From: a virus
DNA length: 28,529 nt
Reading direction: 5' to 3' (one strand)
IMG/VR virus record: IMGVR_UViG_3300013306_000047
Coordinates: 1-28,529 of that record
Shown piece by piece: positions 1 to 12,109 of this stretch. Position 1 is the first letter of the stretch. Every line of letters starts with the position of its first letter. The position numbers and the translations under genes are program-made. Below the pieces are notes generated by a model. The model saw nothing but the letters and a program-made list of their open reading frames with translations, was not told where the DNA came from and made no database searches.

Positions 1-41
1 GAGTCAGATAAACTCTTGGAAAGCTGCTCGTAGTTGAACAT
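1..41 (-). CDS. Start of an unidentified gene, cut by the left window edge
   Basis: An ATG at 41-39 overlaps the TAA stop of the upstream pyrophosphatase gene as TAATG, the junction used repeatedly between genes here. The visible part reads MFNYEQLSKSLSD and stays open to the edge. There is no clear Shine-Dalgarno sequence, so translation would depend on coupling to the upstream gene. Thirteen codons are too few to suggest a function. The overlap and the shared direction are the only evidence that it is a gene. Confidence 0.5.
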   Translation of the reverse strand, partial: MFNYEQLSKSLSD

Positions 42-487
42 TACGGAGTCGTAACGTCAGGGTTACAGATTTCGCAGACCTCAGGATCGAAGATAGACGG
101 CTTGACATCGTCCAAAGCTCGAGTACAGATTTTACACTTGTTCTCATTGGTATATCCAGCAGCCTGGCGGTCTCGGTTGACCTGCATTTTGGCCAAATAA
201 ATCTCATTCAACTCTTCGTCAGTCACCTTAGAAGCGACAAGACCGTTTGCGATGAAGTGAAGAGCATCCACAAGCTCCTTGACATATTCACGTCGGTTAA
301 AATATTCCTTTGAAGACCACGTCTTCCACGAGAATTCTCCGGCAGCTTCATGCATCTCATCAAGAGTTGCGAAAGTCTGGACGAAGAGATACTTTAGAAG
401 CTCTTCACCTTCTTTTGCTGCTGGATCAGTTCCAAAGGAATCGATCTGAAGCTGGCGAGTCTCTTCCAACCACTTGTCAAATAGCAT
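41..487 (-). CDS. All-alpha dimeric dUTPase/dCTPase (MazG-like NTP pyrophosphatase) with C-terminal Cys4 motif
   Basis: This 148-aa protein has the metal-binding pattern of the all-alpha dUTPase/MazG superfamily: E44xxE47, then E71xxD74 inside ELVDALHF. It also has the FSWKTWSS segment and the late K..VNRDRQAAGY segment of dimeric dUTPases. The family hydrolyses dUTP, and in T4 (gp56) also dCTP, to the monophosphate and pyrophosphate. A tail after residue 115 carries C118xxC121 and C138xxC141, a probable zinc ribbon not part of the core fold. Its ATG directly abuts the TAG stop of the glycosyltransferase gene, with GAAGGTAAG upstream as a ribosome site. If cytosine is replaced in this phage, this enzyme would clear dCTP and supply dCMP. 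The family call is firm; the choice between dUTP and dCTP is inference. Confidence 0.85.
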   Translation of the reverse strand: MLFDKWLEETRQLQIDSFGTDPAAKEGEELLKYLFVQTFATLDEMHEAAGEFSWKTWSSKEYFNRREYVKELVDALHFIANGLVASKVTDEELNEIYLAKMQVNRDRQAAGYTNENKCKICTRALDDVKPSIFDPEVCEICNPDVTTP

Positions 488-1525
488 CTATTTCTTACCT
501 TCAATTTCATTTTGGATTGCAGCGTCGATCTGGAATGCAGCCTCTGCTTGAGAAGTCTTATTCTGGTACCATGCTGTTGCCTGAGCATTAGCGATTTTAA
601 GCTTCTGAGTGAGGTTCATTGCTTCCACTTCTTTAACTGTAACATCATATGCAGCAGAAATGAAACTCAGCTCCTTGGACTGTGATACAAGGATTGCTCC
701 AGTCGAAGCTGCCTGATCATGACGGATACGAAGCCAGCCAGAACCTGCATGCCAGTAGGGGCAAGAGAGAACGCCCCAAGAGTCTGAGTACATCTGGACA
801 AGCTCAGACTCAGGCATTCCACCTGCTTCTGCCTTTGACGCTTTACTACCGCGGTGAGCAAGAGGCCAGCCAAGGTCCAGCTTTTCAAGCCACTTCTGCT
901 GGTCAGAGAGAATACCGAAGACCCACTGGTCCTTCTTGTCTACGGCAAGAGTGGAAGGAATGTTGTAGTCAGTATAGAAGTCGGTTGGATCGATCGCAAT
1001 GATGTTCGTACCTTCAGGCATCTTTGGCTTGAAGAGGTCGTGGTCACCGTTTTTATAGAGTGGCATGACGACGTCAAACCAGTCAGTAGCGAGAACTGTT
1101 AGTCCAGCCTTAATCGAATCAACGTTCTCCTGGGCCCATGCATAGTGTTGACGACCTTCAAAGAACTTTTTGGTGATCGTCTCAGGCTTGGCAAGGAGAC
1201 CTGCAGCATTACCCTGAATGCCATGCATCTTCCAGTCATCGATAAAGAAGAGCATAGGTAGGTTATGCTTCTTTGCCTCGCCAATAGCCCAGAGGGCACC
1301 GTATGAGTAGCCGGCAGTGATTGAGGACAGTGAGCTGACACCCATAAAAATGAGGTCGAACTTTGTTAGGTCTTCTTCAGGTTCAGTGGGGCGGTGCTCC
1401 ACGCTGTATCCTGCAGCGACAATGGCTCGGGCAAAGAGCTGTGCCACTGGATCGTACTTCAGACGAGTACCTTTTCCAGTGTGTTGATTGGTGAAGCCAG
1501 TAATGAGAATGTTACCCTTAGACAA
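488..1525 (-). CDS. GT-B-like glycosyltransferase, candidate DNA (hydroxymethylcytosine) glycosyltransferase
   Basis: About 345 aa. The N-terminus is a Rossmann-type strand (GNILITGFTNQHTGKG) with alternating hydrophobic strands such as FDLIFMGVSSLSS and LPMLFFIDDW. Late in the protein, SELVQMYSDSWGVLSCPYWH, then GSGWLRIRHDQAASTGAILV, resembles the donor-binding half of GT-B glycosyltransferases, where a surface-exposed sugar-nucleotide site precedes a short hydrophobic strand. I chose the TTG at 1525 because AAAGGA sits six bases upstream and the Rossmann strand follows at once; an ATG at 1540 and a TTG at 1558 are in frame but lack a ribosome site. The gene has its own candidate promoter and lies just upstream of the dUTPase/dCTPase. 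No secretion signal or membrane segment is visible, so it is cytoplasmic, which suits a DNA or nucleotide acceptor. Donor sugar and acceptor cannot be read from sequence. Confidence 0.65.
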   Translation of the reverse strand: MSKGNILITGFTNQHTGKGTRLKYDPVAQLFARAIVAAGYSVEHRPTEPEEDLTKFDLIFMGVSSLSSITAGYSYGALWAIGEAKKHNLPMLFFIDDWKMHGIQGNAAGLLAKPETITKKFFEGRQHYAWAQENVDSIKAGLTVLATDWFDVVMPLYKNGDHDLFKPKMPEGTNIIAIDPTDFYTDYNIPSTLAVDKKDQWVFGILSDQQKWLEKLDLGWPLAHRGSKASKAEAGGMPESELVQMYSDSWGVLSCPYWHAGSGWLRIRHDQAASTGAILVSQSKELSFISAAYDVTVKEVEAMNLTQKLKIANAQATAWYQNKTSQAEAAFQIDAAIQNEIEGKK

Positions 1526-1549
1526 AGGTAATCCTTTCATGTTAAGAAT

Positions 1550-1577
1550 ACTATACAATAGGATGCCCGATGTACAC
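1550..1577 (-). promoter_or_regulatory. Candidate promoter of the glycosyltransferase unit
   Basis: Reading the minus strand, GTGTAC (1577-1572), a 16-base spacer and TATAGT (1555-1550) lie between the upstream hairpin and the glycosyltransferase start. The predicted transcript would begin near 1543, a few bases before the AAAGGA ribosome site. The -35 shares the core TGTAC with two other candidate promoters in this window. This is motif evidence only. Confidence 0.4.
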
Positions 1578-1584
1578 AGGCAAG

Positions 1585-1614
1585 AAGAGGCGCCTATCGA
1601 AATAGACGCCTCTT
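1585..1614 (-). terminator. Hairpin terminator after the ssDNA-binding protein gene
   Basis: A 13-bp stem with a TTCG tetraloop (minus-strand sense) lies 13 bases after the stop of the gene at 1628. On the minus strand every pair forms, with one G-U wobble; on the plus strand the same position is a C-A mismatch, so the structure is built for the minus-strand transcript. The 3' tail (TCTTCTTG) is only moderately U-rich. On the plus-strand side the arm is followed by a T run, so it may also stop antisense transcripts. Confidence 0.65.
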
Positions 1615-1627
1615 TTTTCAGGTCAGA

Positions 1628-2266
1628 CTAGAGACCCGGTGCCGGAGGGGCATTGTTCTCCCAAGGGTTCGCCGAAGGAACCTGAGGTGTAGTCGGAATG
1701 TTCGGTACTCCAGGTACGGTAGGACCTGCAGTAGGAGCGCTAGCAACCTGAGGTGCAGATGCAACCTGAGGTACAGACGGAACAGACGGAGTGCTGCTAC
1801 CGCTAGAAGAACCAACAGTCGCTGCAGCATTACCAATTGCTGCGCCTACAGGGGCTGCAAAGCTGGAGAACTCGTTCTTCTTTTTACCTGAGTTTGCAGG
1901 ATACTCAGTAGTCTTCAAACCACCAACGAAACGCTTGTTGATGAGGTTGCTGACAATCTGCTCATCACTCGGGTTCGACTTCCAGAAACCTTCGAGAGTC
2001 AGACCGAAGACAGCCATTTCTCGGAAGAAGTAAGCAAGAGCATTCGGGTTCTCAGGTGAGATGTACCAAGTGTTCCAGACCTTACGCTTAGCGTTTGGAC
2101 CACTTTCAACAATTGCAGTGATTCCGATACTCTTCTTACCGGTTTTTGATTCACCGACTTCAGCTTCAGAAACTACGAAGTTGTAGTTGTCATCCGGAAG
2201 CGGTTCGAAAGCCTTACCAGCTTCGCCAGCGGCTTCGACAAGGTTGTCCCATGAGATATTAGGCAT
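1628..2266 (-). CDS. Single-stranded DNA-binding protein-like, DUF669 type
   Basis: This 212-aa protein has a globular N-terminal half (about 1-130) with the pattern of phage DUF669-type proteins: DDNYNFVVSEAEV, then KRKVWNTWYIS, then a helix ALAYFFREMAVFGL and a late GGLKTTEYPANSGKKKNEF strand. These proteins usually sit with a Sak4-like ATPase and are thought to be phage single-strand DNA-binding proteins. Residues from about 130 to the end are low-complexity Ser/Pro/Ala/Val with short PSVPQVAS-like repeats, a disordered tail like those bacterial SSBs use to recruit partners. However, it ends NPWENNAPPAPGL rather than with the acidic DDDIPF tip. The start is an ATG with GAAAGAAG upstream. 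It is the last gene of its unit, followed by a hairpin terminator. Confidence 0.65.
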   Translation of the reverse strand: MPNISWDNLVEAAGEAGKAFEPLPDDNYNFVVSEAEVGESKTGKKSIGITAIVESGPNAKRKVWNTWYISPENPNALAYFFREMAVFGLTLEGFWKSNPSDEQIVSNLINKRFVGGLKTTEYPANSGKKKNEFSSFAAPVGAAIGNAAATVGSSSGSSTPSVPSVPQVASAPQVASAPTAGPTVPGVPNIPTTPQVPSANPWENNAPPAPGL

Positions 2267-2288
2267 TTAGTAATTCTTCTTTCGTCGT

Positions 2289-3095
2289 TTATTCTGCAGG
2301 AGGAGCAGGGGGTGTAGAGGAATCTACGATTGTGGTTGTTGGAGTCAAAATAGCAGGAGCAGGTTTAGTCACTGCCTGTTGCGAACTCGTCTGAGGAAAT
2401 ACTGTATCAAGCATTCCCTCGATAGATGGGTTTTCGATGATGATTGGAAGTCCAGGAACTCTGTTTCCAGCTTCGAAACTGGGGTTCTTGTCTGTAAGAA
2501 GCTTACGAACAACGACCCAGTTACCAGCTTCATCCTGTACTTGATCAAGGAAGATGTAAGACGTGACATCGAACCAGTATGCAACCTGAGATGCAATCTG
2601 ACCCTGAAGATATGGCTTTAGAACACCTTCAACTTCACGAGACATTGCTGTGACAACAACGGCTTCAAGTGGATTTTTCTGGACAGTCAAGTCACGGAGG
2701 TCTCGAGCAAAGAATGCCATCTTCGCAAGTAGAGTTCCCCAGTCCTGAGTCTTCATCTGATTACGACCAGCGACCAGTTCCTGTGCCTTTACCTGAAGCT
2801 CTGAAATAGAGTCAAGAATAACGGACTTGAACGGGTGCTTACCACTCTTTAGCCATTCATAGGCTTTTAGAGCTGTCGTAAAGTCCGTAACTCGGACAAT
2901 ACAGGTATCCCACGTGCCATCAGCTTCAGGTGGAGCGTCAACCATCGGGTCCCAATAGACCTTTTCGCACTGTAGAAAGCGGCTAGCAGCTTCTACGTCA
3001 AGCAAAAGGCGTGGATATGGTGCGGTATTTGCAAATGTTGTTTTACCAACCTTAGCATGTCCGTGAACTAGAACGCTTAGGGCGCGATCTGTCAT
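2289..3095 (-). CDS. Sak4-like RecA-fold ATPase for recombination
   Basis: 268 aa. A Walker A motif GHAKVGKT (residues 12-19) and a Walker B strand SVILDSIS (Asp95) place it in the RecA/AAA_24 group of phage ATPases often called Sak4, which bind single-stranded DNA and help annealing or strand exchange together with a phage SSB. The segment between the motifs (LLLDVEAASRFL) and the later VVVTAMSREVEG are consistent. The C-terminal 35 residues are Pro/Thr/Ala-rich and probably disordered. It overlaps the upstream exonuclease gene as TGATG and is followed by the SSB-like gene, so nuclease, ATPase and SSB would be made together as a recombination or replication-repair module. The exact biochemical role is inferred from family and context. 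Confidence 0.75.
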   Translation of the reverse strand: MTDRALSVLVHGHAKVGKTTFANTAPYPRLLLDVEAASRFLQCEKVYWDPMVDAPPEADGTWDTCIVRVTDFTTALKAYEWLKSGKHPFKSVILDSISELQVKAQELVAGRNQMKTQDWGTLLAKMAFFARDLRDLTVQKNPLEAVVVTAMSREVEGVLKPYLQGQIASQVAYWFDVTSYIFLDQVQDEAGNWVVVRKLLTDKNPSFEAGNRVPGLPIIIENPSIEGMLDTVFPQTSSQQAVTKPAPAILTPTTTIVDSSTPPAPPAE

Positions 3096-4081
3096 CAGCC
3101 ATCACTACTTTCTTTTTCTGTTGTTACGTTGTATCGCTCGTAAGGATTGACAACATTATAATGGTCTTCAATATACTGTTCTGCAGAGGACCCATCATCA
3201 AGCATTGGACATACCTGAAAGAATGGGCACATACCGCAGTGCCAGTCCATTTGTGGTTTTGGATAAGCTACAAAACGATGGTCTGCACCTTCGTCGAGTT
3301 TATCGCGAACTTCCATCATATCATGCAGAACGCCACGTAGGCGAATCCAGAACGAGTTAAGAGTTACATCATTAAATCGTACGTCGATACGGTCATAGAA
3401 AGGAGGTTTAGCTGTTCCAGTTCGTTTTACTTTCTTAAGAAGATTGTAAACTCCACCATCAACTTCTGCACCATCTTCGGGAGGATTGAACTTATTGATA
3501 AGCGTATACGTCATGAGTTGTTCAGACATATGCGAATACTTGTAGTACGGTCCCAAATCTGCTGCGGTTTTATGATCAATAATTGCGAGTGAATTATCTG
3601 ATCGGCGACGAGCTTCTGCGTCAACCTTAGCTTGAAGAATAACTCTACCACCAAAATCATCGATGATGAGAGAAATTACTTTCTCTGCATACTGAATATC
3701 GATGTTGGCATCGGCATTTGTTTCTGCAAGCCAGTCTAAATAACCTTCAAGCATCAAACGGCCAAGTTCACCCTCAGACTCGAATTTTCTAACCTTTGTA
3801 GGGTCTTCTGCTTCGATACTGTCTCGAAAGATAGCATTGTCTTTTCTCATCAAACGGTTATACGCATCTACAGGATTATCGTAGGTAGTGTAGTACTGCT
3901 CGAGAGAATCATGAACTCGGGTTCCAAGCGGCAAAGGTCCAACTAAAGTCTGTTCTTTCTTTTGAAGTCCCAGATAATTAGCGAGATACCAATGCCGCTT
4001 GCAATTTTTGAACCCTTGAATTTCAGAATTGGAAATACGCACTTGTTCGGGCTTGATACCCAAGTAAGGCTGTAAAGTCAT
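3095..4081 (-). CDS. Cas4/RecB-like PD-(D/E)XK exonuclease with iron-sulfur cysteines
   Basis: 328 aa with a complete Cas4/AddB-type nuclease layout: first cluster cysteine C27 (FKNCKRHW), His57 (GTRVHDSLEQYY), Asp154 (LQAKVDAEA), D169-H-K171 (IIDHKTA), Gln188 (EQLMTY), and a C-terminal triplet C282, C285, C291 (CGMCPFFQVC). The four cysteines would hold a 4Fe-4S cluster; the acidic residues and lysine form the metal-dependent nuclease site. In phages such enzymes resect DNA ends for recombination. The ATG has GAGGAA six bases upstream. It is the first gene of a unit with its own candidate promoter and overlaps the Sak4-like gene by TGATG. All catalytic and cluster residues seem intact. Confidence 0.85.
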   Translation of the reverse strand: MTLQPYLGIKPEQVRISNSEIQGFKNCKRHWYLANYLGLQKKEQTLVGPLPLGTRVHDSLEQYYTTYDNPVDAYNRLMRKDNAIFRDSIEAEDPTKVRKFESEGELGRLMLEGYLDWLAETNADANIDIQYAEKVISLIIDDFGGRVILQAKVDAEARRRSDNSLAIIDHKTAADLGPYYKYSHMSEQLMTYTLINKFNPPEDGAEVDGGVYNLLKKVKRTGTAKPPFYDRIDVRFNDVTLNSFWIRLRGVLHDMMEVRDKLDEGADHRFVAYPKPQMDWHCGMCPFFQVCPMLDDGSSAEQYIEDHYNVVNPYERYNVTTEKESSDG

Positions 4082-4112
4082 GTATTTCCTCTATGTTTTT
4101 GTTTCTAGAATA

Positions 4113-4142
4113 ATTGTATTACGTTTCCTTGCAAAAGTACAA
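4113..4142 (-). promoter_or_regulatory. Candidate promoter of the exonuclease-ATPase-SSB operon
   Basis: On the minus strand TTGTAC (4142-4137), an 18-base spacer and TACAAT (4118-4113) fill the 61-base gap before the exonuclease gene. The 12-mer GATTGTACTTTT, which includes the -35, also occurs upstream of the kinase gene at 12154-12165; both copies start right at the stop codon of the preceding gene. TTGTA and TACAA also form an inverted pair, so an operator is possible. Confidence 0.5.
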
Positions 4143-4844
4143 TCAAGGTGCTACATACTTACTTTCCTCAAAAGCTTCCCAAACGTTCGGGAATTTCTCC
4201 TTGATAATTTCTACAATCTGATCAGTGACGAGTTCAATTTCGTCCTGAGCATGTGAAACAACAGCTGCACCTTCCCATTCTTTTCGCTTTGAAAGGAAAT
4301 TCATCAGGCTGCGCATATTAATAGTGAGGAACATTGAGGTGTATGTATTCACTGGCATGTGCATTCGTGCAACTTCTTTCGCTACACCAAGCTCAAGGAG
4401 CTTTTCGTAGTTGTCCCAAAATGCCTGAGCACTATTCTCCAACACCCAACGTACAGCTGCCATCTGATCTGGAGTACCATCAACAAAATGGTAGTCTCCA
4501 GTCTTACCAACCTGGACGAGCTTGCGCTCATCTCGTGGAGTGTAGAAGTTGGGCATGAACTCACGGTACCGACCTGATTCCTCATTAATAGAGGAAAGAC
4601 GATGCTTTACGATCTGCCGAGAGACGAAAATCGGTACCTCGAGATAGAACGTAAAGAGTACATGCTCGAATGGAACTCCGTGCTGGTCCCTGAAAAGGTA
4701 CTTCAGGAGCCTTGTGTTGCCTTTTGTGTCACGAGAATCAGCACCTAATGTAGATACTTTAGCGACCTGCACCACGCGATCCTCGGTGCCCATAGAGTCA
4801 ATCAACTCTACTGTTACGTCACTTCGTAGTGAAACTTCTGTCAT
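4143..4844 (-). CDS. thyX: Flavin-dependent thymidylate synthase ThyX
   Basis: 233 aa. It methylates dUMP to dTMP using methylene-tetrahydrofolate, NADPH and FAD. The ThyX signature is at residues 80-93, KHRLSSINEESGRY, matching RHRxxSxNExSxRY except for a conservative Lys in place of the first Arg. The C-terminal NMRSLMNFLSKR segment, with the family's substrate-binding Arg-Ser, is also present, and length is normal. The gene directly follows the helicase gene (TAAATG junction) and ends the long operon that starts at the kinase gene. Its presence matters for interpretation: with a full ThyX, the ThyA-fold protein at 10311-11192 is not needed for dTMP. The Lys80 change might alter FAD or dUMP binding but is unlikely to abolish it. 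Confidence 0.93.
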   Translation of the reverse strand: MTEVSLRSDVTVELIDSMGTEDRVVQVAKVSTLGADSRDTKGNTRLLKYLFRDQHGVPFEHVLFTFYLEVPIFVSRQIVKHRLSSINEESGRYREFMPNFYTPRDERKLVQVGKTGDYHFVDGTPDQMAAVRWVLENSAQAFWDNYEKLLELGVAKEVARMHMPVNTYTSMFLTINMRSLMNFLSKRKEWEGAAVVSHAQDEIELVTDQIVEIIKEKFPNVWEAFEESKYVAP

Positions 4845-6740
4845 TTAGGAATCGTCTCCGTGTAGTTCTTCTTCGTCATCTTCAGTCAAGGTGACTGCTC
4901 TGTCGAGCTCATCCTGACTGATTTCTTCTCCCAAAAGGGTTTTCAAGATGAGTGCTTCATCTCGAAGGATACTCTGTAGGTGGCGGTTCTTCTCATCAAT
5001 AGCTTGGAAGACGCGCTCCTGTACAGTTCCCTTTGTCACATAATCAATAATGCGGACACGTTCATGAATCTCAGAACCAATTCGGTGTCCGCGAGCTTCA
5101 GCCTGAAGGTTCTCGATGAGACTCCAGCTTCTCTGGAGGAATGCTGTTGTGCTTCCTCGAGTCAGAGTAATACCCGTTCCACCAGCCGCAATCGTACAAA
5201 GAATGTACTTGATCTTGCCGTCCTGGAAATCATCCATATGGATTTGACGTTCCATAGCAGTCTGGGCACCTGTGATGAGACCATGCTTGATTTTCAGCTT
5301 TGTTAGTCGCTTCGACAATAGATCAATCAGCTGTCGAGAAACTGCAAATACGATGATCGACTCTTCACCAAAATCAGGAATATCATCAATGAAAGCATCC
5401 AGAGTAGCTGACGGATCAGCGAGAATAACTTTCTGCTTGACTTCATCCATCTGAGTGTATGGATTAAATACTACTTCATCAGAATCAACAATCTCAGCAT
5501 ACGAAGAAGAGAACTGAAGCATTCGCATCATTCGAATAAGTGGAGAGTCTGTTACAACTAACTCACCATTCAACTCAGCGATCATCTGGTTTTCCATTTG
5601 CTTATACGCTTTTGCCTGTTTAGGAGACATTTCAACATCTCGGCGTTCACGAATAATAGGAGGCAAGAACTTCAGAATAACGTCTTTCGGCATGCGACGA
5701 AGGAATGGATCGAGTCCTGCAAAGAACTCCTGCTCCATGTGTCGCTTGACACCCAAAACTACAGGCTGGCCCCATGCATCAAACGAAGTATCCATAAAGC
5801 GTTCACGCCATTTGGTGCGAGACGGGAAGACTTCTGGCCACATCCAGTTGAGCGCTGAAAAGAGGTCATACGGCTTCGAAGCAATCGGAGTACCAGACAA
5901 TCCGAAGCGGAATCTAGCATTTCCAGTTGCAGCCTTCAAAGCTCGAGCCATCTGAGACTTCGGATCCTTGATACGATGGACTTCATCGATGATCACGGTA
6001 TTAAAGTCTATCACATTTAGCTCACGAATGTGAACTTGGCATGCAGTCTCTTTCACATTCGAGTCATGACCACCACAAGCTACGCATCGTTTCAGACCGA
6101 CGCTGCCGTATGGAGCTAGACGACTGTGAGACTTTGCAATCTCGTGGTTGATGATGTAGACGTGAGCCTTCTCCTCGAGAAGCTTACGACGCTGACCAGC
6201 AGAGCCAGTCACGACGTTTACTTTCAAGCCAGGCCATACGATGTCAATCTCTCGCTGCCAACCGATTTTGGTCGAGTTTGGAACTGAGATAAGAACTGGA
6301 AAAGGATTCTTACCTTCTTCAAACAGTCGACGGACTGTAGAGAAAACGGTTCGAGTCTTTCCAGAACCCATGTCATCACAGAGGAATCCACGTTCGGCTA
6401 GAGCCAGAAATTGGACTCCCGCATTCTGGTGTGGTCGAAGGTCTGGATATCCTTCTGCTTCAAGCTGGTCTCTCAGCTGATGAAGAATACCAATTCGAGT
6501 GGTCCACTCATCCTCTGCCCATCTCTGAAGCTCAGGTCCAACTTCTGGAACCTCAGTCCCAAAAGTGTTGAACATTGCAAGATAGGAATGCCAAGACAAA
6601 GGAATATCAGCAGTGTTCTGCGTACCTGGTTTTGGCCTAGCTCCGGGAATTGTCTTTACGAGTTCAGCGAATCTCCACTCGTAGGTTAGGCGAATTTTTG
6701 ATTTGTCGCCTTCAAATATTTCAGCTAGGACTGCTGACAC
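4845..6740 (-). CDS. SNF2-family DNA helicase/translocase with inserted zinc finger
   Basis: 631 aa with two helicase lobes. Motif I is DDMGSGKTR (GK at about 127-128), motif II is DEVH (252-255), motif III is GLSGTPIA, and motif VI is QAEARGHRIG (about 546-555), close to the QAxDRxHRIGQ of SNF2 enzymes. Between motifs Ia and II lies C219xxC222...C234xxH237, a probable zinc-binding insertion. The end is strongly acidic (EDDEEELHGDDS). SNF2-type enzymes move along duplex DNA and in phages are linked to replication, recombination or displacement of bound proteins. The start is a GTG at 6740 with GACGAAAGG upstream; the first 20 bases overlap the methyltransferase gene. It lacks the hexameric fold of replicative helicases, so the replicative helicase is probably elsewhere or from the host. 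Confidence 0.88.
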   Translation of the reverse strand: MSAVLAEIFEGDKSKIRLTYEWRFAELVKTIPGARPKPGTQNTADIPLSWHSYLAMFNTFGTEVPEVGPELQRWAEDEWTTRIGILHQLRDQLEAEGYPDLRPHQNAGVQFLALAERGFLCDDMGSGKTRTVFSTVRRLFEEGKNPFPVLISVPNSTKIGWQREIDIVWPGLKVNVVTGSAGQRRKLLEEKAHVYIINHEIAKSHSRLAPYGSVGLKRCVACGGHDSNVKETACQVHIRELNVIDFNTVIIDEVHRIKDPKSQMARALKAATGNARFRFGLSGTPIASKPYDLFSALNWMWPEVFPSRTKWRERFMDTSFDAWGQPVVLGVKRHMEQEFFAGLDPFLRRMPKDVILKFLPPIIRERRDVEMSPKQAKAYKQMENQMIAELNGELVVTDSPLIRMMRMLQFSSSYAEIVDSDEVVFNPYTQMDEVKQKVILADPSATLDAFIDDIPDFGEESIIVFAVSRQLIDLLSKRLTKLKIKHGLITGAQTAMERQIHMDDFQDGKIKYILCTIAAGGTGITLTRGSTTAFLQRSWSLIENLQAEARGHRIGSEIHERVRIIDYVTKGTVQERVFQAIDEKNRHLQSILRDEALILKTLLGEEISQDELDRAVTLTEDDEEELHGDDS

Positions 6741-7584
6741 TATTTAGCCTTTCGTCCATAATTTTCTTTGCGTCTTCTTTCTCATCGATCATAACGTAGT
6801 TACGACCGAGTTTCTTTGCTACTGCTCCAGTTGTGCCAGAGCCAGCGAAGAAGTCAAGAACCCAGTCACCTTCCTTGGTGGAAGCCTGAATCATCCTACG
6901 AATAATACCTTCCGGCTTTTGCGTAGGATACCCAGTACGCTCCTTACCATTGGTAGGAACGATCGTGTGCCACCAGACATCAGTCGGTAGCTTGCCAAGT
7001 TCACGCTTTTCTGGAGTCACAAGACCCGGAGCCATGTAGGGCTCACGATCGACCTCTTCAGAGTTGTAGTAGTACTTGGATGGGTTCTTGACGTATACAA
7101 GAATATTATCATGCTTTGTCGGCCACTTAGACTTCGACTTTCCGCCATAGTCGTAGGCCCAGATGATCTCATTCAGAAAGCACTCACGACCGAAGATCGT
7201 GTCCAGGATTACCTTCGCATAGTGGACTTCACGGTAGTCGAGATGGAGGTAGAGAGTGCCTGTCTCATCCAAGAGACGCCATGCTTCACGAAGACGGGGT
7301 TCAAGGAAAGCCCAAAAATTAGCAAAAGAGTCGTTATACTCAATAGTTCGTCCAAGAATTTTCACGCCTTCGATCGTCGTCTGCTTGGCCATAGACTGGG
7401 TGTCCCCGGTGTTGAATGGGGGATCGATATAGATCATCTGATATGATTCATCAGCCATCTGGTTCATGAAGCCCAGGTTGTCACCGAGTAGGATTTGGCA
7501 TTCGCGCTTCGTTCCGTCTTTTTTCAAGTTCTTCAATCTGTGTAGTGCTTCTTTAATTCCAGTTGCATTGTCAGTCAACGTCAA
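6721..7584 (-). CDS. DNA adenine-N6 methyltransferase, beta class (type III Mod-like)
   Basis: 287 aa. The catalytic motif IV DPPFNTG (54-60) comes before the AdoMet motif I DFFAGSGTTG (244-253), the order of beta-class amino-methyltransferases. DPPF favours adenine N6 over cytosine N4, which usually has SPP. The middle region (DYGGKSKSKWPTKHD to YYYNSEEV) is the likely target-recognition part, and GYPTQKPEGIIRRMI is the conserved block before motif I. No restriction endonuclease gene is adjacent, so it is an orphan, probably protecting phage DNA from host restriction or marking DNA for regulation. The start is a TTG at 7584 (or a TTG at 7578) after GAAGGG; no in-frame ATG lies before motif IV at a usable place. 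The gene overlaps the resolvase gene upstream and the helicase gene downstream. Confidence 0.88.
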   Translation of the reverse strand: MTLTDNATGIKEALHRLKNLKKDGTKRECQILLGDNLGFMNQMADESYQMIYIDPPFNTGDTQSMAKQTTIEGVKILGRTIEYNDSFANFWAFLEPRLREAWRLLDETGTLYLHLDYREVHYAKVILDTIFGRECFLNEIIWAYDYGGKSKSKWPTKHDNILVYVKNPSKYYYNSEEVDREPYMAPGLVTPEKRELGKLPTDVWWHTIVPTNGKERTGYPTQKPEGIIRRMIQASTKEGDWVLDFFAGSGTTGAVAKKLGRNYVMIDEKEDAKKIMDERLNSVSSPS

Positions 7585-8065
7585 GCAACCCTTCAGGGCG
7601 CCATTTATGCTTCAGTACGAGGTAGATAACACCATGTCGGATGGCATCTCGTGTGTGTCCTCCTTGGACTCCATCTGTAGGATTAAGTCCAAGAGCTTTT
7701 AGTCGTTCGTCAGGTGCAAAGTCCTTCTGCATTGGCTGCTGAAGAGTGTACATGACTCCAAACTTCCAGCATAGGTACTCGAGGACTCCGATGTACTTCA
7801 GAGACCAAGGACCTGCACCCAGTTTGGCTGTCTGGGTTGTGATGATAAAGTTCTCACACACAACCTCAAATTGGTACTTCTCATTGTGAGCGTACTGATC
7901 AAAAAGCTCATCAAGAAAGGCAAAGAATTCAGGACCTTCACCAACTTGCTTTGTCCAGAGAAGGTTAGCATCTTCACCACCATTGATTCCAGTGATGTCC
8001 CATAAAGCTGTTCCAGTTGCTTTTCCTGGATCGCAAGAAAAGAGAATACGTTCTGGCTCATCCAT
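7571..8065 (-). CDS. RuvC-like Holliday junction resolvase
   Basis: 164 aa with an RNase H-like opening strand carrying the first catalytic acid, SCDPGKATGTALWD (Asp12 in DPGxxTG). A middle strand FEVVCENFIIT brings the second acid (Glu), and a C-terminal GGHTRDAIRHGVIYL helix brings the last acidic residue, as in phage RuvC-family resolvases. The enzyme would cut branched DNA made by replication and recombination before packaging. Start is ATG in a TAATG overlap with the polymerase stop; the 3' end overlaps the methyltransferase start. Position between polymerase and SNF2 helicase supports a replication-recombination role. Confidence 0.8.
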   Translation of the reverse strand: MDEPERILFSCDPGKATGTALWDITGINGGEDANLLWTKQVGEGPEFFAFLDELFDQYAHNEKYQFEVVCENFIITTQTAKLGAGPWSLKYIGVLEYLCWKFGVMYTLQQPMQKDFAPDERLKALGLNPTDGVQGGHTRDAIRHGVIYLVLKHKWRPEGLLDVD

Positions 8066-9849
8066 TAGTACTTGTCACCCCATCGAGCTAGAGGCTTTGT
8101 GACGTCTGCAGTGAAGGGAACTTCCCAGTCTGTAGTCGTCATGCACTCTACGATTTCTCGTGAAGCTGTCTCCAACTCATGCTCATCAACTTCAAGAACG
8201 ATTTCATCGTGGACTGGAATGCTCATCGCATCTCCGTATCCAGCTGCATCGAGCTTCAGAAGGTTACGCTTCATGATGTCTGCTGCAGAACCTTGGCACA
8301 GATAGTTAATTGCTCGGTATTCTGCACCACGCTCAACAGGAATCTCTCGACCTGAAACAGGAATAGTCACGAAACCATCAGAGGTACGAGTCGAAGAAAG
8401 CTGAGTCTCTCGAATAATTTCTTTCTGCCACTGCTCCATGCGAGGATACTTCTCATTGAGATTCTTTGCGAATGTTCTCATGACATCAACTGAAACTCCA
8501 GCAGACTTTGCCTGCTTTTCAAGAGAAGCACCGAAGAGCTTCGAGTAGATGTATGTCTTTACAAGAGCACGACGTGGGTCCTTCTTTTGCATGTCAGGAT
8601 CGCCGTAAACCTCACGACCAATCTCTGTGAAGGAGTCACTACCATTTGCATCTGCACGATGGAAAGTGTCCTGAAGACCAGCATCTCCCGACAAACATGA
8701 GAAGATACGGAACTCCACCTGATCGAGGTCAGATGTCAGCATTTTCTTACCATCACGAGGAATGAAAGCATTCTTCACAAGAGGACCATCAGATGGAACC
8801 TGCTGCATGTTCGGGTTTGATGAGCTCATACGACCTGTAATAGCACCAATAGTGTTGATGTTACAGTGGATGATTCCATTGTCATGCTTTTCAAGGAATG
8901 ACTCAAAATAAGTACTCTTGATCTTCTGGTAACGACGAGCATCAAGTGCTACCTTCGCAACATACTTAACTTTGTCATTGCCAGTCTCTACAAACTTCTC
9001 GAGAATTTCAGCTTTCACACTCAAAGAACCCGAAGCAGTGATCATCTCACTTGTAAAGTCTGCACCCAAGTCCTTGAGATAGCGAGCAAGTGCTGCAGGT
9101 GATGAGATGGAGAATCCAAGCTCTTCCTTGGCCCATTTCTGGACTCGCTGATCATACTCGTCAAGCTCTTTTGCTTTCTGAGCGCAGTAGTCAACGTCAA
9201 TCTTGAGACCCTTCAGCTCCATATTGGAGCATACACGAAGAACACCCATTTCCTGATCATAAGCGTCAGGATACTTGAGGTCTGCTCGTAGCTGCTTCCA
9301 GAGATGAGCTGTCAGGATCGGGTCCAAAGCACCATATGCCCAATACTCAGGAAGATCAATCGGTACATTGTGCCAGAACCAACCGTGCTCCTTGAACTTT
9401 GCATCCAAGAGAGCTTGACCGACTCCAGCTCGAGGATCGACCAACTCTGTAGCAAGGTTCTTCAGTGCTGCAGGTTTTCCAGGTCTCATGAGCTTTGCCA
9501 TAATCATCGTATCATTAATTCGATGCCATGGAATCTTCCACTCTGTAGCTAGAAGCTGGAAGAATTTTAAGTCGAAGTTTGCATTGTGGAGTGCAATCGG
9601 TTGCGTCGATTTCTGAAGTGCTTCAATTGCCACTCCACCAAAACGCTCCCAAGGAATTGCCCAACCAGAATTATAATCACCAATCTGGACTAGTCGAATT
9701 GCCGAGTCACTTTTGAATGCAGATAGACCCTGAGATTCGATGTCGAGACCAATTACTTCTCGTCCTCTGTCGTTATTAAGCCACTCGTAGAACTTCCCAA
9801 TGTCTTCCATTGAGTTTACTAGGTGTAGCTCTGGATTTCCAATACCCAA
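8065..9849 (-). CDS. DNA polymerase I-like (family A) replicative polymerase with 3'-5' exonuclease
   Basis: 594 aa, lacking the 5'-3' exonuclease domain. The proofreading domain is intact: Exo I LDIES (Asp36, Glu38), Exo II LHNANFD (Asp93), Exo III Y172GALD176. The polymerase domain has motif A (Asp374 and Glu379 in SDLDQVEF), motif B (R427, K431, Y435) and motif C HDE (548-550). In E. coli Pol I the position of Y435 is Phe762; Tyr here is the state seen in T7 DNA polymerase. The second O-helix aromatic is Phe instead of Tyr. Start is TTG at 9849; the nearest in-frame ATG, 14 codons on, has no ribosome site. The gene sits seven bases from the dCMP deaminase stop, inside the nucleotide-metabolism operon, so it is likely the polymerase that would use the modified dNTP pool. 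Confidence 0.93.
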   Translation of the reverse strand: MGIGNPELHLVNSMEDIGKFYEWLNNDRGREVIGLDIESQGLSAFKSDSAIRLVQIGDYNSGWAIPWERFGGVAIEALQKSTQPIALHNANFDLKFFQLLATEWKIPWHRINDTMIMAKLMRPGKPAALKNLATELVDPRAGVGQALLDAKFKEHGWFWHNVPIDLPEYWAYGALDPILTAHLWKQLRADLKYPDAYDQEMGVLRVCSNMELKGLKIDVDYCAQKAKELDEYDQRVQKWAKEELGFSISSPAALARYLKDLGADFTSEMITASGSLSVKAEILEKFVETGNDKVKYVAKVALDARRYQKIKSTYFESFLEKHDNGIIHCNINTIGAITGRMSSSNPNMQQVPSDGPLVKNAFIPRDGKKMLTSDLDQVEFRIFSCLSGDAGLQDTFHRADANGSDSFTEIGREVYGDPDMQKKDPRRALVKTYIYSKLFGASLEKQAKSAGVSVDVMRTFAKNLNEKYPRMEQWQKEIIRETQLSSTRTSDGFVTIPVSGREIPVERGAEYRAINYLCQGSAADIMKRNLLKLDAAGYGDAMSIPVHDEIVLEVDEHELETASREIVECMTTTDWEVPFTADVTKPLARWGDKY

Positions 9850-9855
9850 TTATCT

Positions 9856-10314
9856 TTACCATCTTTCGACTGTTATTCCGCATTCTCTGAGAAACTTTTC
9901 AGTCTCTTCAGGATTACGATGCATATCAATCTCATCCACTCTGTGGACAAGTTTCACTATTCCTGCTGCAGCTAATGCCTTGGCGCAAGAATAGCAACTA
10001 GCTCGAGTCACGTATGCAGTGGCTCCAACTGTTCGAGAGCGGTCAACTCTCGCAATACTGTTTACTTCTGCATGGACTGACGGACAACCATCATACGTGG
10101 GTCCTAGATCAGTCTTTCCTTGGCTCCGTAAGCACCAGTTAGTGCATGGACCATCTGCAATAAAGTTACTAGGTGGACCATTATACGAGGCCGAGAGGAC
10201 ATTCTGGTCTTTGTCAACAATAACACAGCCTACCTGAGCACGACTACACTTCGAGCGAAGTGCAATCGTGTCAGCAAACTGCATCCAAATTTCATCCCAA
10301 TCGGGTCTACTCAT
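9856..10314 (-). CDS. dCMP deaminase (ComEB-like)
   Basis: 152 aa. It converts dCMP to dUMP, the substrate of ThyX. The zinc site and catalytic glutamate are in HAEVNSI (His81, Glu83) with C107xxC110 in ASCYSCAKAL, Ser replacing the Pro usually found before the first Cys. Extra cysteines at 30, 57, 61 and 77 around DGPCTNWCLR probably make the structural zinc site known from phage dCMP deaminases. SYNGPPSNF is the substrate-binding loop. It overlaps the ThyA-fold gene by ATGA, so both would be made in step: one enzyme would take dCMP to dUMP, the other is proposed to hydroxymethylate dCMP. T4 has the same pair of activities competing for dCMP. Confidence 0.93.
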   Translation of the reverse strand: MSRPDWDEIWMQFADTIALRSKCSRAQVGCVIVDKDQNVLSASYNGPPSNFIADGPCTNWCLRSQGKTDLGPTYDGCPSVHAEVNSIARVDRSRTVGATAYVTRASCYSCAKALAAAGIVKLVHRVDEIDMHRNPEETEKFLRECGITVERW

Positions 10315-11192
10315 TTAGTATTCCGCATAAACTTTACAAGCTGAGCTGCTCGTCTATCGAGAAGTAAGCCAGCAGTTAGTTTTTCATCGGGAGTCTGAGC
10401 ATCTTCCCAAGGAAGAGTCTGCGTCACAACTCGATACGTTTTGAACGCACGCTCTTGGAATGTTTCTTCGCCAATTTTTCTAAACATTGGAATAAGGAAC
10501 CAGTCACCAAGACCATGCTTGTTGGCAATAATCTCATTCGCAACGTTCCAGTGTGGTTCGTAGATATGGAAGCTTCCGACATGGTGAGAATATGTTCCAA
10601 CCTCAACACCCAATTCAGCTGCCATAGACTGCATCAACATCGAGAACTGGATGAGGTCGAAAGGCCAACCATGAATTGCATCATTAGATCGCATAAACAC
10701 AGACATGTTCAACTTACCGTCACGAATACGGAAGTTGAAGAGACTCGTGCAAGGGTGGTCTTTCTTTCCACCGTGTGCATCAAACTCTGGGTCCCATAGT
10801 GTGATGACTGCCTGCCGAGTGTCTGGGTCTTTCCTGAGACGCTCTACAATGATAGGCAATTGGTTTACAATACGAGGACCGTAAGCACCCCAAAACTTAC
10901 CTGTGTCATCCTCCATATAGTTTCTGAAGTTAGGTTGAATTTGTGCAGTGAGTGCAGAGTCAGAAACTCCAGAAACTAGCTGAAGTCCTTCAACAAGACC
11001 GATTTCAGGAGAATAGAAAGGTCGGACACCATTAGCGGCAGTGAGTGTTGGATTTTCAACTTCGATGACTACGTCTTCAAGCTCAATAGTTTCACCATTG
11101 CGGCTTTTCTGCTTGACTCCCTTCATCATGAGATGACTGAGAATCATTCGATAACCTGTATGGTTGTCTTCAATTTTAATAAGGTGAGCCAC
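10311..11192 (-). CDS. ThyA-fold deoxycytidylate (dCMP) hydroxymethylase
   Basis: 293 aa, thymidylate-synthase fold. Catalytic Cys148 is followed by Thr (HPCTSLF), not by the His of true ThyA. MRSND (167-171) replaces QRSxD, Asp179 in GWPFDL sits where ThyA has the Asn that selects uracil, and VGSFHIY (205-211) replaces GDxHxY. T4 gp42 dCMP hydroxymethylase, as I recall its sequence, has MCTNT, MRSND, Asp179 and VGSLHVY, with the same 31-residue step from Cys to Asp. The expected reaction is dCMP plus methylene-tetrahydrofolate to 5-hydroxymethyl-dCMP. The start is GTG in a TAGTG overlap with the kinase, and the stop overlaps dCMP deaminase by ATGA. ThyX in the same operon makes a dTMP role unnecessary. 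A 5-methyl-dCMP product or a CMP substrate (MilA-like) are alternatives. An automatic label of 'thymidylate synthase' would be misleading. Confidence 0.82.
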   Translation of the reverse strand: MAHLIKIEDNHTGYRMILSHLMMKGVKQKSRNGETIELEDVVIEVENPTLTAANGVRPFYSPEIGLVEGLQLVSGVSDSALTAQIQPNFRNYMEDDTGKFWGAYGPRIVNQLPIIVERLRKDPDTRQAVITLWDPEFDAHGGKKDHPCTSLFNFRIRDGKLNMSVFMRSNDAIHGWPFDLIQFSMLMQSMAAELGVEVGTYSHHVGSFHIYEPHWNVANEIIANKHGLGDWFLIPMFRKIGEETFQERAFKTYRVVTQTLPWEDAQTPDEKLTAGLLLDRRAAQLVKFMRNTK

Positions 11193-12109
11193 TAATCCAG
11201 GTCCTGTGCTTTCTCTGCTGCAACGTACACACTAGTCGGGTACATTCTATCTGTCGATGGTGCATCAATCTTGATATGGTTGATGCCATAAGAGTTTAGT
11301 CTTGCACTTACTGTCTCACTATATGTCAAAACACCTGACATTGACAATCGAGTCAAAAGCTCCTCAAGTGCAGACTGTGACACTGAACTGACAATTGCGA
11401 GACTCTGGATGAATTCAGGTCGAAGTACGTCGAGAAAGACTTCAGCTTCATCAGACTGTGTCGGATGGAATCTAGCATTCTTTGCTTTATTGTCTACAAC
11501 GAGAATTGTCTGCGGATCATCGAATGTACGACCAACGTATGATTTAACTCCGTGACTGAGAATGCTAGCTGCTCGGAATTCTGCATACTCAGCATCAAGA
11601 ATAATATGTGGTGCAATTATAGCAAGAGACTCTTCATTGGGTGAAACTTCATTTGCGAAGATTAGAGATTCTTTTGTAAGAAGTGTGAACTGCTCTCGAA
11701 CGAAATCAACGTGACGTTCTTCTAAGTAGTCTTCACCACGAGCTGCAAGACGCTCTTGGAGAACTTCAAGAGGCTGCGTTACATTCCAGAGTCTGGCTCC
11801 TTTGGAGGCAAGGAACAGTTCGATCCACTCGTATGATCCACGGGAAGAATCATAACCCGAAGAATTTCGGTATAGAGGTCCGTAGATTCGTTCTCCCACA
11901 TGCCAGCGATCGATGATGATGTGTCGTCCATCGGAGGGCGTATAATTATCAAGTCGTTCTACATACTCCTCGTATACAGTACCTTTAATCTGCGAGGCAT
12001 GGATGTACTCCACAGTATCTTCAGGATGTGCTTCTTGGATTAGTTCACTGATGGCTCCAGCAAGAGTCGACTTGCCTGCTCCATCAACACCCTCAAGAAT
12101 AATTAGCAT
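11192..12109 (-). CDS. Deoxynucleoside monophosphate kinase fused to an extra C-terminal domain
   Basis: 305 aa. The N-terminal ~185 residues are a thymidylate-kinase-like P-loop kinase: Walker A EGVDGAGKST (6-15), a DRWHVGERIYGPLYR segment in the DRx position, and a lid-like region ERLAARGEDYLEERHVD. The C-terminal ~115 residues (from about KSYVGRTF) are not part of normal kinases. They begin with a hydrophobic strand TILVVDNKAK and later show VLTYSETVSARLNSYGI, loosely like the strand-helix elements of uracil-DNA-glycosylase-fold proteins found fused to some phage kinases, but without clear catalytic motifs. The gene starts the long operon: ATG with AAAGGA, own candidate promoter, and TAGTG overlap with the hydroxymethylase. 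The proposed job is to phosphorylate hm-dCMP and other dNMPs, like T4 gp1. Confidence 0.8.
   Translation of the reverse strand: MLIILEGVDGAGKSTLAGAISELIQEAHPEDTVEYIHASQIKGTVYEEYVERLDNYTPSDGRHIIIDRWHVGERIYGPLYRNSSGYDSSRGSYEWIELFLASKGARLWNVTQPLEVLQERLAARGEDYLEERHVDFVREQFTLLTKESLIFANEVSPNEESLAIIAPHIILDAEYAEFRAASILSHGVKSYVGRTFDDPQTILVVDNKAKNARFHPTQSDEAEVFLDVLRPEFIQSLAIVSSVSQSALEELLTRLSMSGVLTYSETVSARLNSYGINHIKIDAPSTDRMYPTSVYVAAEKAQDLD

Follow-up and report, generated by a model that had tools for sequence, protein, structure and literature searches.

A predicted pathway for glycosylated hydroxymethylcytosine in a virus fragment with ThyX and a family A polymerase

Glycosylated hydroxymethylcytosine (hmC) is a known constituent of T4 DNA. 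RB69 and its relatives have arabinosyl-cytosine (PMC6024577, PMC13390438), and in Thanatos cytosine carries a pentose (PMC12838424). Metagenomes have supplied diverse DNA glycosyltransferases of phages (Pyle et al. 2024, as cited in PMC13216743). RB69-type enzymes, which are homologous to the ThyA-fold dCMP hydroxymethylases, have 5-hydroxy-dCMP as their product (PMC13390438). Agrobacterium phage Atu_ph04 (L090) carries a UDP-galactopyranose mutase (UGM), a dCMP hydroxymethylase and a GT1 enzyme (PMC6630229), and enterococcal phages carry a galactofuranosyltransferase-like gene that, in the available part of the report, is suggested as one that might further modify phage DNA (PMC4999554). DSL-LC01 is a lake metagenome-assembled genome, according to the available text of its report (PMC10611076). 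Within the available parts of PMC10611076 and PMC4524720, the genes of DSL-LC01 and the Gordonia phages are not described as a hydroxymethylcytosine pathway.

The gene run and the proposed pathway

The window, the whole stretch of DNA that was analysed, is an IMG/VR virus fragment of 28,529 nucleotides with 46.5% GC and genes on the minus strand. It has no match in phage records at the DNA level, and a search for longer contigs of its own lineage turned up short ones alone. Tail genes lie to the right of position 12109. Between 12109 and 41 the minus strand carries a single uninterrupted gene run, with intergenic gaps of -20 to +102 bases, in the order kinase, ThyA-fold enzyme, dCMP deaminase, PolA, RuvC-like protein, N6/N4 methylase, SNF2-type helicase, ThyX, PD-(D/E)XK nuclease, Sak4-like ATPase, SSB-like protein, glycosyltransferase (GT) and MazG/dUTPase. 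An earlier, sequence-only reading had placed the named genes correctly, and all of them prove to be on the minus strand; its division of the pathway into several operons is replaced by this one run. The main features are:

11192..12109, minus strand: P-loop deoxynucleoside-monophosphate kinase, thymidylate-kinase-like, proposed 5hm-dCMP kinase (phrog_761; YorR by sequence and fold)
10311..11192, minus strand: predicted dCMP 5-hydroxymethylase of the ThyA fold (PF00303, 4e-23; signature residues; PDB match)
9856..10314, minus strand: dCMP deaminase (PF00383, 3e-17; phrog_174, 6e-44)
8065..9849, minus strand: family A DNA polymerase with a 3'-5' exonuclease domain (PF00476, 4e-60; PF01612, 3.5e-11)
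6721..7584, minus strand: N6/N4-type DNA methylase (PF01555, 5e-50)
4143..4844, minus strand: ThyX flavin-dependent thymidylate synthase (PF02511, 1.6e-44; TIGR02170, 3.6e-48, above cut-off)
488..1525, minus strand: GT-B glycosyltransferase of the phrog_14998 family, proposed 5hmC-DNA glycosyltransferase (AlphaFold model, fold match, family alignment)
41..487, minus strand: MazG-like/dUTPase_2 pyrophosphatase, proposed dCTPase/dUTPase (PF08761, 5e-10)

The TAGTG overlap reported earlier between the kinase and ThyA-fold genes is real (..GGATTAGTGGC..), the ThyA-fold and deaminase genes overlap by 4 bases, and the MazG-like gene abuts the GT stop codon. These three junctions suggest translational coupling. 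The order kinase, hydroxymethylase, deaminase, PolA, RuvC, helicase, nuclease, Sak4, SSB, GT, MazG is repeated in DSL-LC01 and many IMG/VR contigs; since it recurs in other phages, the arrangement is more than chance. The N6/N4-type methylase (6721-7584), which lies within the run, was not seen in the related loci compared using seeds from the window.

The phage probably carries 5-hydroxymethylcytosine plus a sugar in its DNA. This pathway reading is supported by sequence, predicted fold and gene neighbourhood; from these we infer what each enzyme does, which acceptor and sugar are used, and that the DNA is protected against restriction. The MazG/dUTPase_2 protein would degrade dCTP and dUTP, clearing normal dCTP and giving dCMP, which the ThyA-fold enzyme would hydroxymethylate. 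The adjoining kinase would take 5hm-dCMP to the diphosphate, host NDP kinase would complete the series, and the phage polymerase would incorporate the hydroxymethylated nucleotide. Because the ThyA-fold protein would no longer make dTMP, this would be provided by the dCMP deaminase and ThyX; with the ThyA-fold enzyme changed in substrate, the presence of ThyX in the run explains the dTMP supply, and GMA2 has the same ThyX and ThyA-fold pair. Once the base is in DNA, the GT would glycosylate its hydroxymethyl group; for the family as a whole the candidate donor is UDP-galactofuranose, which would come from phage-encoded UGM in several lineages and perhaps from the host elsewhere. The earlier proposal that these activities are combined with ThyX and a family A polymerase is borne out, both of these and the dCMP deaminase scoring well above cut-offs.

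The MazG-like protein shares PF08761 with T4 gp56 (5e-10 for the window protein, 2e-5 for gp56), with 31.5% identity over 92 amino acids. It is proposed to be a dCTPase/dUTPase; its sequence does not single it out as a dCTPase. The kinase matches the thymidylate kinase family phrog_761 (1.6e-12), and its nearest solved structure is YorR, which comes up in the sequence comparison (2.5e-4) as well as in the fold comparison (TM to target 0.79). It does not match PF21448, the family of T4 gp1, which gp1 itself matches at 3e-107. Its candidate substrate is 5hm-dCMP, the substrate of this kinase not being predictable. The C-terminal domain of the kinase is poorly modelled; in the relatives L021, L024, L031, L033, L036 and L038 this domain shares the pattern LLVGDxRN ... 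VVALG ... HPQYxxRF, which looks degenerate in the window. A resemblance of the domain to uracil-DNA glycosylases, noted by eye, is not claimed, because the model there is poor and Pfam yields nothing.

The glycosyltransferase family and its sugar

The GT gene begins with a TTG codon, a start supported by a 93% identical copy in L002. Its product matches no Pfam or NCBIfam model, and weakly (7e-9) matches phrog_14998, a family of unknown function to which the GT genes of Aeromonas phage 25 and FBB1 belong. The AlphaFold model, made with 26 sequences, is a confident GT-B fold (pLDDT 90, pTM 0.90), in agreement with the assignment made from the sequence. In the structural search, T4 beta-glucosyltransferase (BGT) heads the listed PDB matches when they are ranked by TM-score (0.63), although the lowest Foldseek E-values belong to antibiotic GT1 enzymes, macrolide and natural-product GTs, whose TM-scores are low (0.3-0.4 for the macrolide GTs). 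By hhalign there is no sequence-level homology to T4 BGT (probability 4.5%) or to the RB69 ORF003c arabinosyltransferase (probability 0.2%). Weak PDB sequence matches to flavodoxin from the GT alignment are taken as chance. Invariant residues of the family alignment are G10, D57, D97, E239, R266, R268, E285 and Q315. When about 85,000 genomes of prokaryotes were scanned with patterns from a tighter alignment, there were 15 hits to the patterns, none of them a relative.

Relatives of the GT were collected from phage records and IMG/VR. On sufficiently long contigs, family members co-occur with a C5-hydroxylating source, which is a dCMP hydroxymethylase in actinophages and in T4-like Aeromonas and Erwinia phages, a TET dioxygenase in cyanophage-like viruses that have no hydroxymethylase, and an arabinose cassette of the RB69 type in Gualtarvirus. 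When 12 relatives were checked over their whole records, 11 had a ThyA-family gene and the remaining one had TET. This complete co-occurrence, together with the active-site residues, the GT-B fold and the gene order, strengthens computationally the earlier idea that a dCMP hydroxymethylase and a DNA glycosyltransferase would together give glycosylated hydroxymethylcytosine. A Tet_JBP dioxygenase gene precedes the GT in C48C1 and in 19 C48C1-like IMG/VR contigs, unless the contig is cut within the GT. TET-GT-UGM clusters are found in C48C1 and IMG/VR contigs, with GTs 24-28% identical to that of the window. In Gualtarvirus (Rgz1, Providencia phages) a GT homologue with 22% identity to the window protein sits inside a cassette resembling the RB69 arabinose module, the identities to RB69 being 74.5% for the isomerase, 84% for the U32 protein and 81% for the ThyA-like protein.

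In DSL-LC01 and Gordonia phages, a diverged GT paralogue lies near the GT (L006, 25441-26430; L007, 8526-9512; L008, 7336-8310; L012, 5587-6567), which suggests a second sugar or a second acceptor. A homologue of C5-cytosine DNA methylases (PF00145) accompanies the GT cassette in 14 of the 17 records searched that are of the hydroxymethylase type and not T4-like; of the three without it, two are shorter than 40 kb. Examples are L006 28375-29619, GMA2 orf51, Phendrix 106, Sixama 120 and L063 10093-11352; the PPC motif is present in the copies read, and the gene lies 3-4 kb from the GT in the four records measured. None was found in the eight TET-type or the three T4-like records searched. Its position beside a hydroxymethylase-type GT cassette is odd, since C5 should be hydroxymethylated already.

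UGM (PF03275) adjoins the GT in three unrelated groups, the adjacency being seen in DSL-LC01-like actinophage contigs, L032, L063, the TET group, Erwinia FBB1 and Aeromonas phage 25, and the two genes overlap in several cases. It is present in 24 of 41 GT-bearing phage records, compared with 88 of 50,697 phage records overall. Since many of the 41 are near-copies, the fair unit is about six lineages, of which three have UGM; the chance of this at the background rate is about 1e-7. The UGM label requires at least four changes on the GT tree, and the spread of UGM-linked homologues over the tree suggests that the donor is conserved. Three UGM-bearing Agrobacterium/Rhizobium/Ochrobactrum phages were tested, and no GT of the phrog_14998 family was found in them; Rhizobium phages also carry UGM. 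For the GT family as a whole, UDP-galactofuranose is the leading donor candidate. It is a nearly even prospect that phrog_14998 and its relatives form a new class of DNA furanosyltransferases, which would transfer galactofuranose, supplied by phage UGM or by the host, to 5-hydroxymethylcytosine in phage DNA, and which would have been paired on separate occasions with different partners: dCMP hydroxymethylase in actinophages and T4-like phages, TET in cyanophage-like viruses.

For the window phage itself the sugar is less certain. No UGM gene lies within the 28.5 kb fragment, whose genome is incomplete, and none is present in the 93% relative L002, which runs past MazG into nrdH-, nrdI- and nrdE-like genes (by eye). 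UGM is absent as well from several GT-carrying contigs of 77-112 kb and from Gordonia phages; it was detected in the C. glutamicum control. Because of the linkage in relatives and its absence from the window fragment and L002, there is good reason to propose galactofuranose for the family and moderate reason for the window phage, where we regard it as a tentative assignment somewhat short of an even chance. As a variant of this reading, compatible with it, the same pathway could use glucose, as T4 does, or some other common UDP-sugar; UGM in relatives would then reflect a different donor confined to their lineages. The missing UGM genes in the window, L002 and several large contigs favour this variant, as does the first rank by TM-score of BGT, a glucosyltransferase. 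It is opposed by the donor conservation that the GT tree suggests and by the ability of Mycobacteriales-type hosts to supply UDP-galactofuranose; Mycobacteriales, the hosts of Gordonia phages among them, make it for arabinogalactan. We consider a common sugar possible, if rather doubtful.

The ThyA-fold enzyme

Residues are given in T4 gp42 numbering, in which 171 corresponds to Asp169 and 179 to Asn177 of E. coli thymidylate synthase (TS). The window enzyme keeps the catalytic Cys148, which is followed by Thr149 where TS has His, so the Cys-His pair of TS is not found. The folate-site Asp171 is kept, as in TS and gp42, and is Asn in RB69-type enzymes; Asp179 replaces the Asn of TS. The set C148, T149, D171 and D179 is common to T4 gp42, to the hydroxymethylases of Aeromonas phage 25 and Erwinia FBB1 and to every GT-carrying actinophage hydroxymethylase examined, while three IMG/VR relatives from loci without GT by seed search have Asn at 179. 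The closest PDB relative is a CMP 5-hydroxymethylase (3e-20). Judged by sequence, the enzyme has the signature of a dCMP hydroxymethylase, as the sequence-only reading had proposed, and neither that of TS nor that of an RB69-type 5-hydroxy-dCMP enzyme, and the residue set and the PDB relative fit a predicted dCMP hydroxymethylation activity.

Two other products would alter the pathway. The enzyme might make 5-hydroxy-dCMP, with the GT glycosylating 5-hydroxycytosine, as the homology of the RB69-type enzymes that do so (PMC13390438) and the Gualtarvirus GT relative in an RB69-like arabinose cassette would allow. However, the motif MRSND of the window enzyme and gp42 is replaced by MRSQN in RB69-type proteins, which branch apart as their own clade in the ThyA tree (row td_L082, in the wrong reading frame, was disregarded), which makes this product very improbable. 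There is equally little probability that the genes serve nucleotide metabolism alone, in which case the enzyme would be either an additional thymidylate synthase or one that hydroxymethylates dUMP, and the DNA would be canonical or contain hydroxymethyluracil (hmU). Relatives are annotated as thymidylate synthase and hmU phages have comparable ThyA-fold and kinase genes, but Thr149 and Asp179 differ from TS and from YuA gp17, an annotated putative dUMP enzyme with Asn at both positions, and ThyX is present already. Least probable is that the GT acts on the host surface or on small molecules and has no tie to the nucleotide genes. Wall-modifying GTs do occur in phages and the lowest Foldseek E-values are to macrolide and natural-product enzymes, but the gene lies inside a replication run beside MazG in actinophage-like contigs, its relatives are paired with TET or dCMP hydroxymethylase, and the prokaryote genomes yielded no relative with the patterns used.

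Comparison with known systems

What appears to be new, from sequence comparison, is the tie between the phrog_14998 GTs and C5-hydroxylating partners, the most novel point being the link of this unnamed family to UGM. Its members may use a sugar for which there is no earlier report on DNA. The literature searched contains no paper that joins hydroxymethylcytosine, galactopyranose mutase and phage, no report of galactofuranosyl-hydroxymethylcytosine and no experimental work on DNA as a substrate of the family. Pyle et al. 2024 or a preprint by Lee et al. 2025 may already describe the family. An unnamed phage protein family thus gains a functional hypothesis, and the predicted base, galactofuranosyl-hydroxymethylcytosine, is testable in isolated phages (Gordonia GMA2, Sixama, Aeromonas phage 25). 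Phage UGM genes, described as wall-related (PMC6630229), gain an alternative reading. If the hypothesis is true, such DNA should respond differently to restriction, to type IV enzymes and to CRISPR nucleases, and hmC could be labelled with the GT.

DSL-LC01 and the Gordonia phages GMA2, Phendrix and Sixama have homologous hydroxymethylase, PolA, GT and MazG genes as well as the kinase and deaminase. DSL-LC01 also keeps the gene order of the window and has UGM and a second GT in addition; among these four genomes ThyX was found in GMA2 alone. The TET-associated systems share a homologous GT, in TET-GT-UGM clusters; there TET is expected to hydroxymethylate the DNA itself, whereas the window uses a predicted dCMP hydroxymethylase and has no TET gene in the fragment. 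The RB69/Gualtarvirus arabinosyl-cytosine cassette resembles the window through the homologous Gualtarvirus GT. It differs in its enzyme, which lacks Asp171 and makes 5-hydroxy-dCMP (PMC13390438), and no arabinose genes were seen in the window.

The T4 glucosyl-hmC pathway (gp56, gp42, gp1, AGT/BGT) has the same logic and step order as the one proposed here. The window hydroxymethylase has the gp42 signature residues, and the GT has the BGT fold. Even so, the kinase lies outside the gp1 family, the GT has no detectable sequence homology to BGT, ThyX and a family A polymerase are present, and the sugar is possibly galactofuranose. The earlier view of a T4-like route built from different parts thus stands for the kinase and the GT, which by sequence are not homologues of gp1, AGT or BGT, and gives way for the MazG-like protein, which belongs to the Pfam family of gp56.
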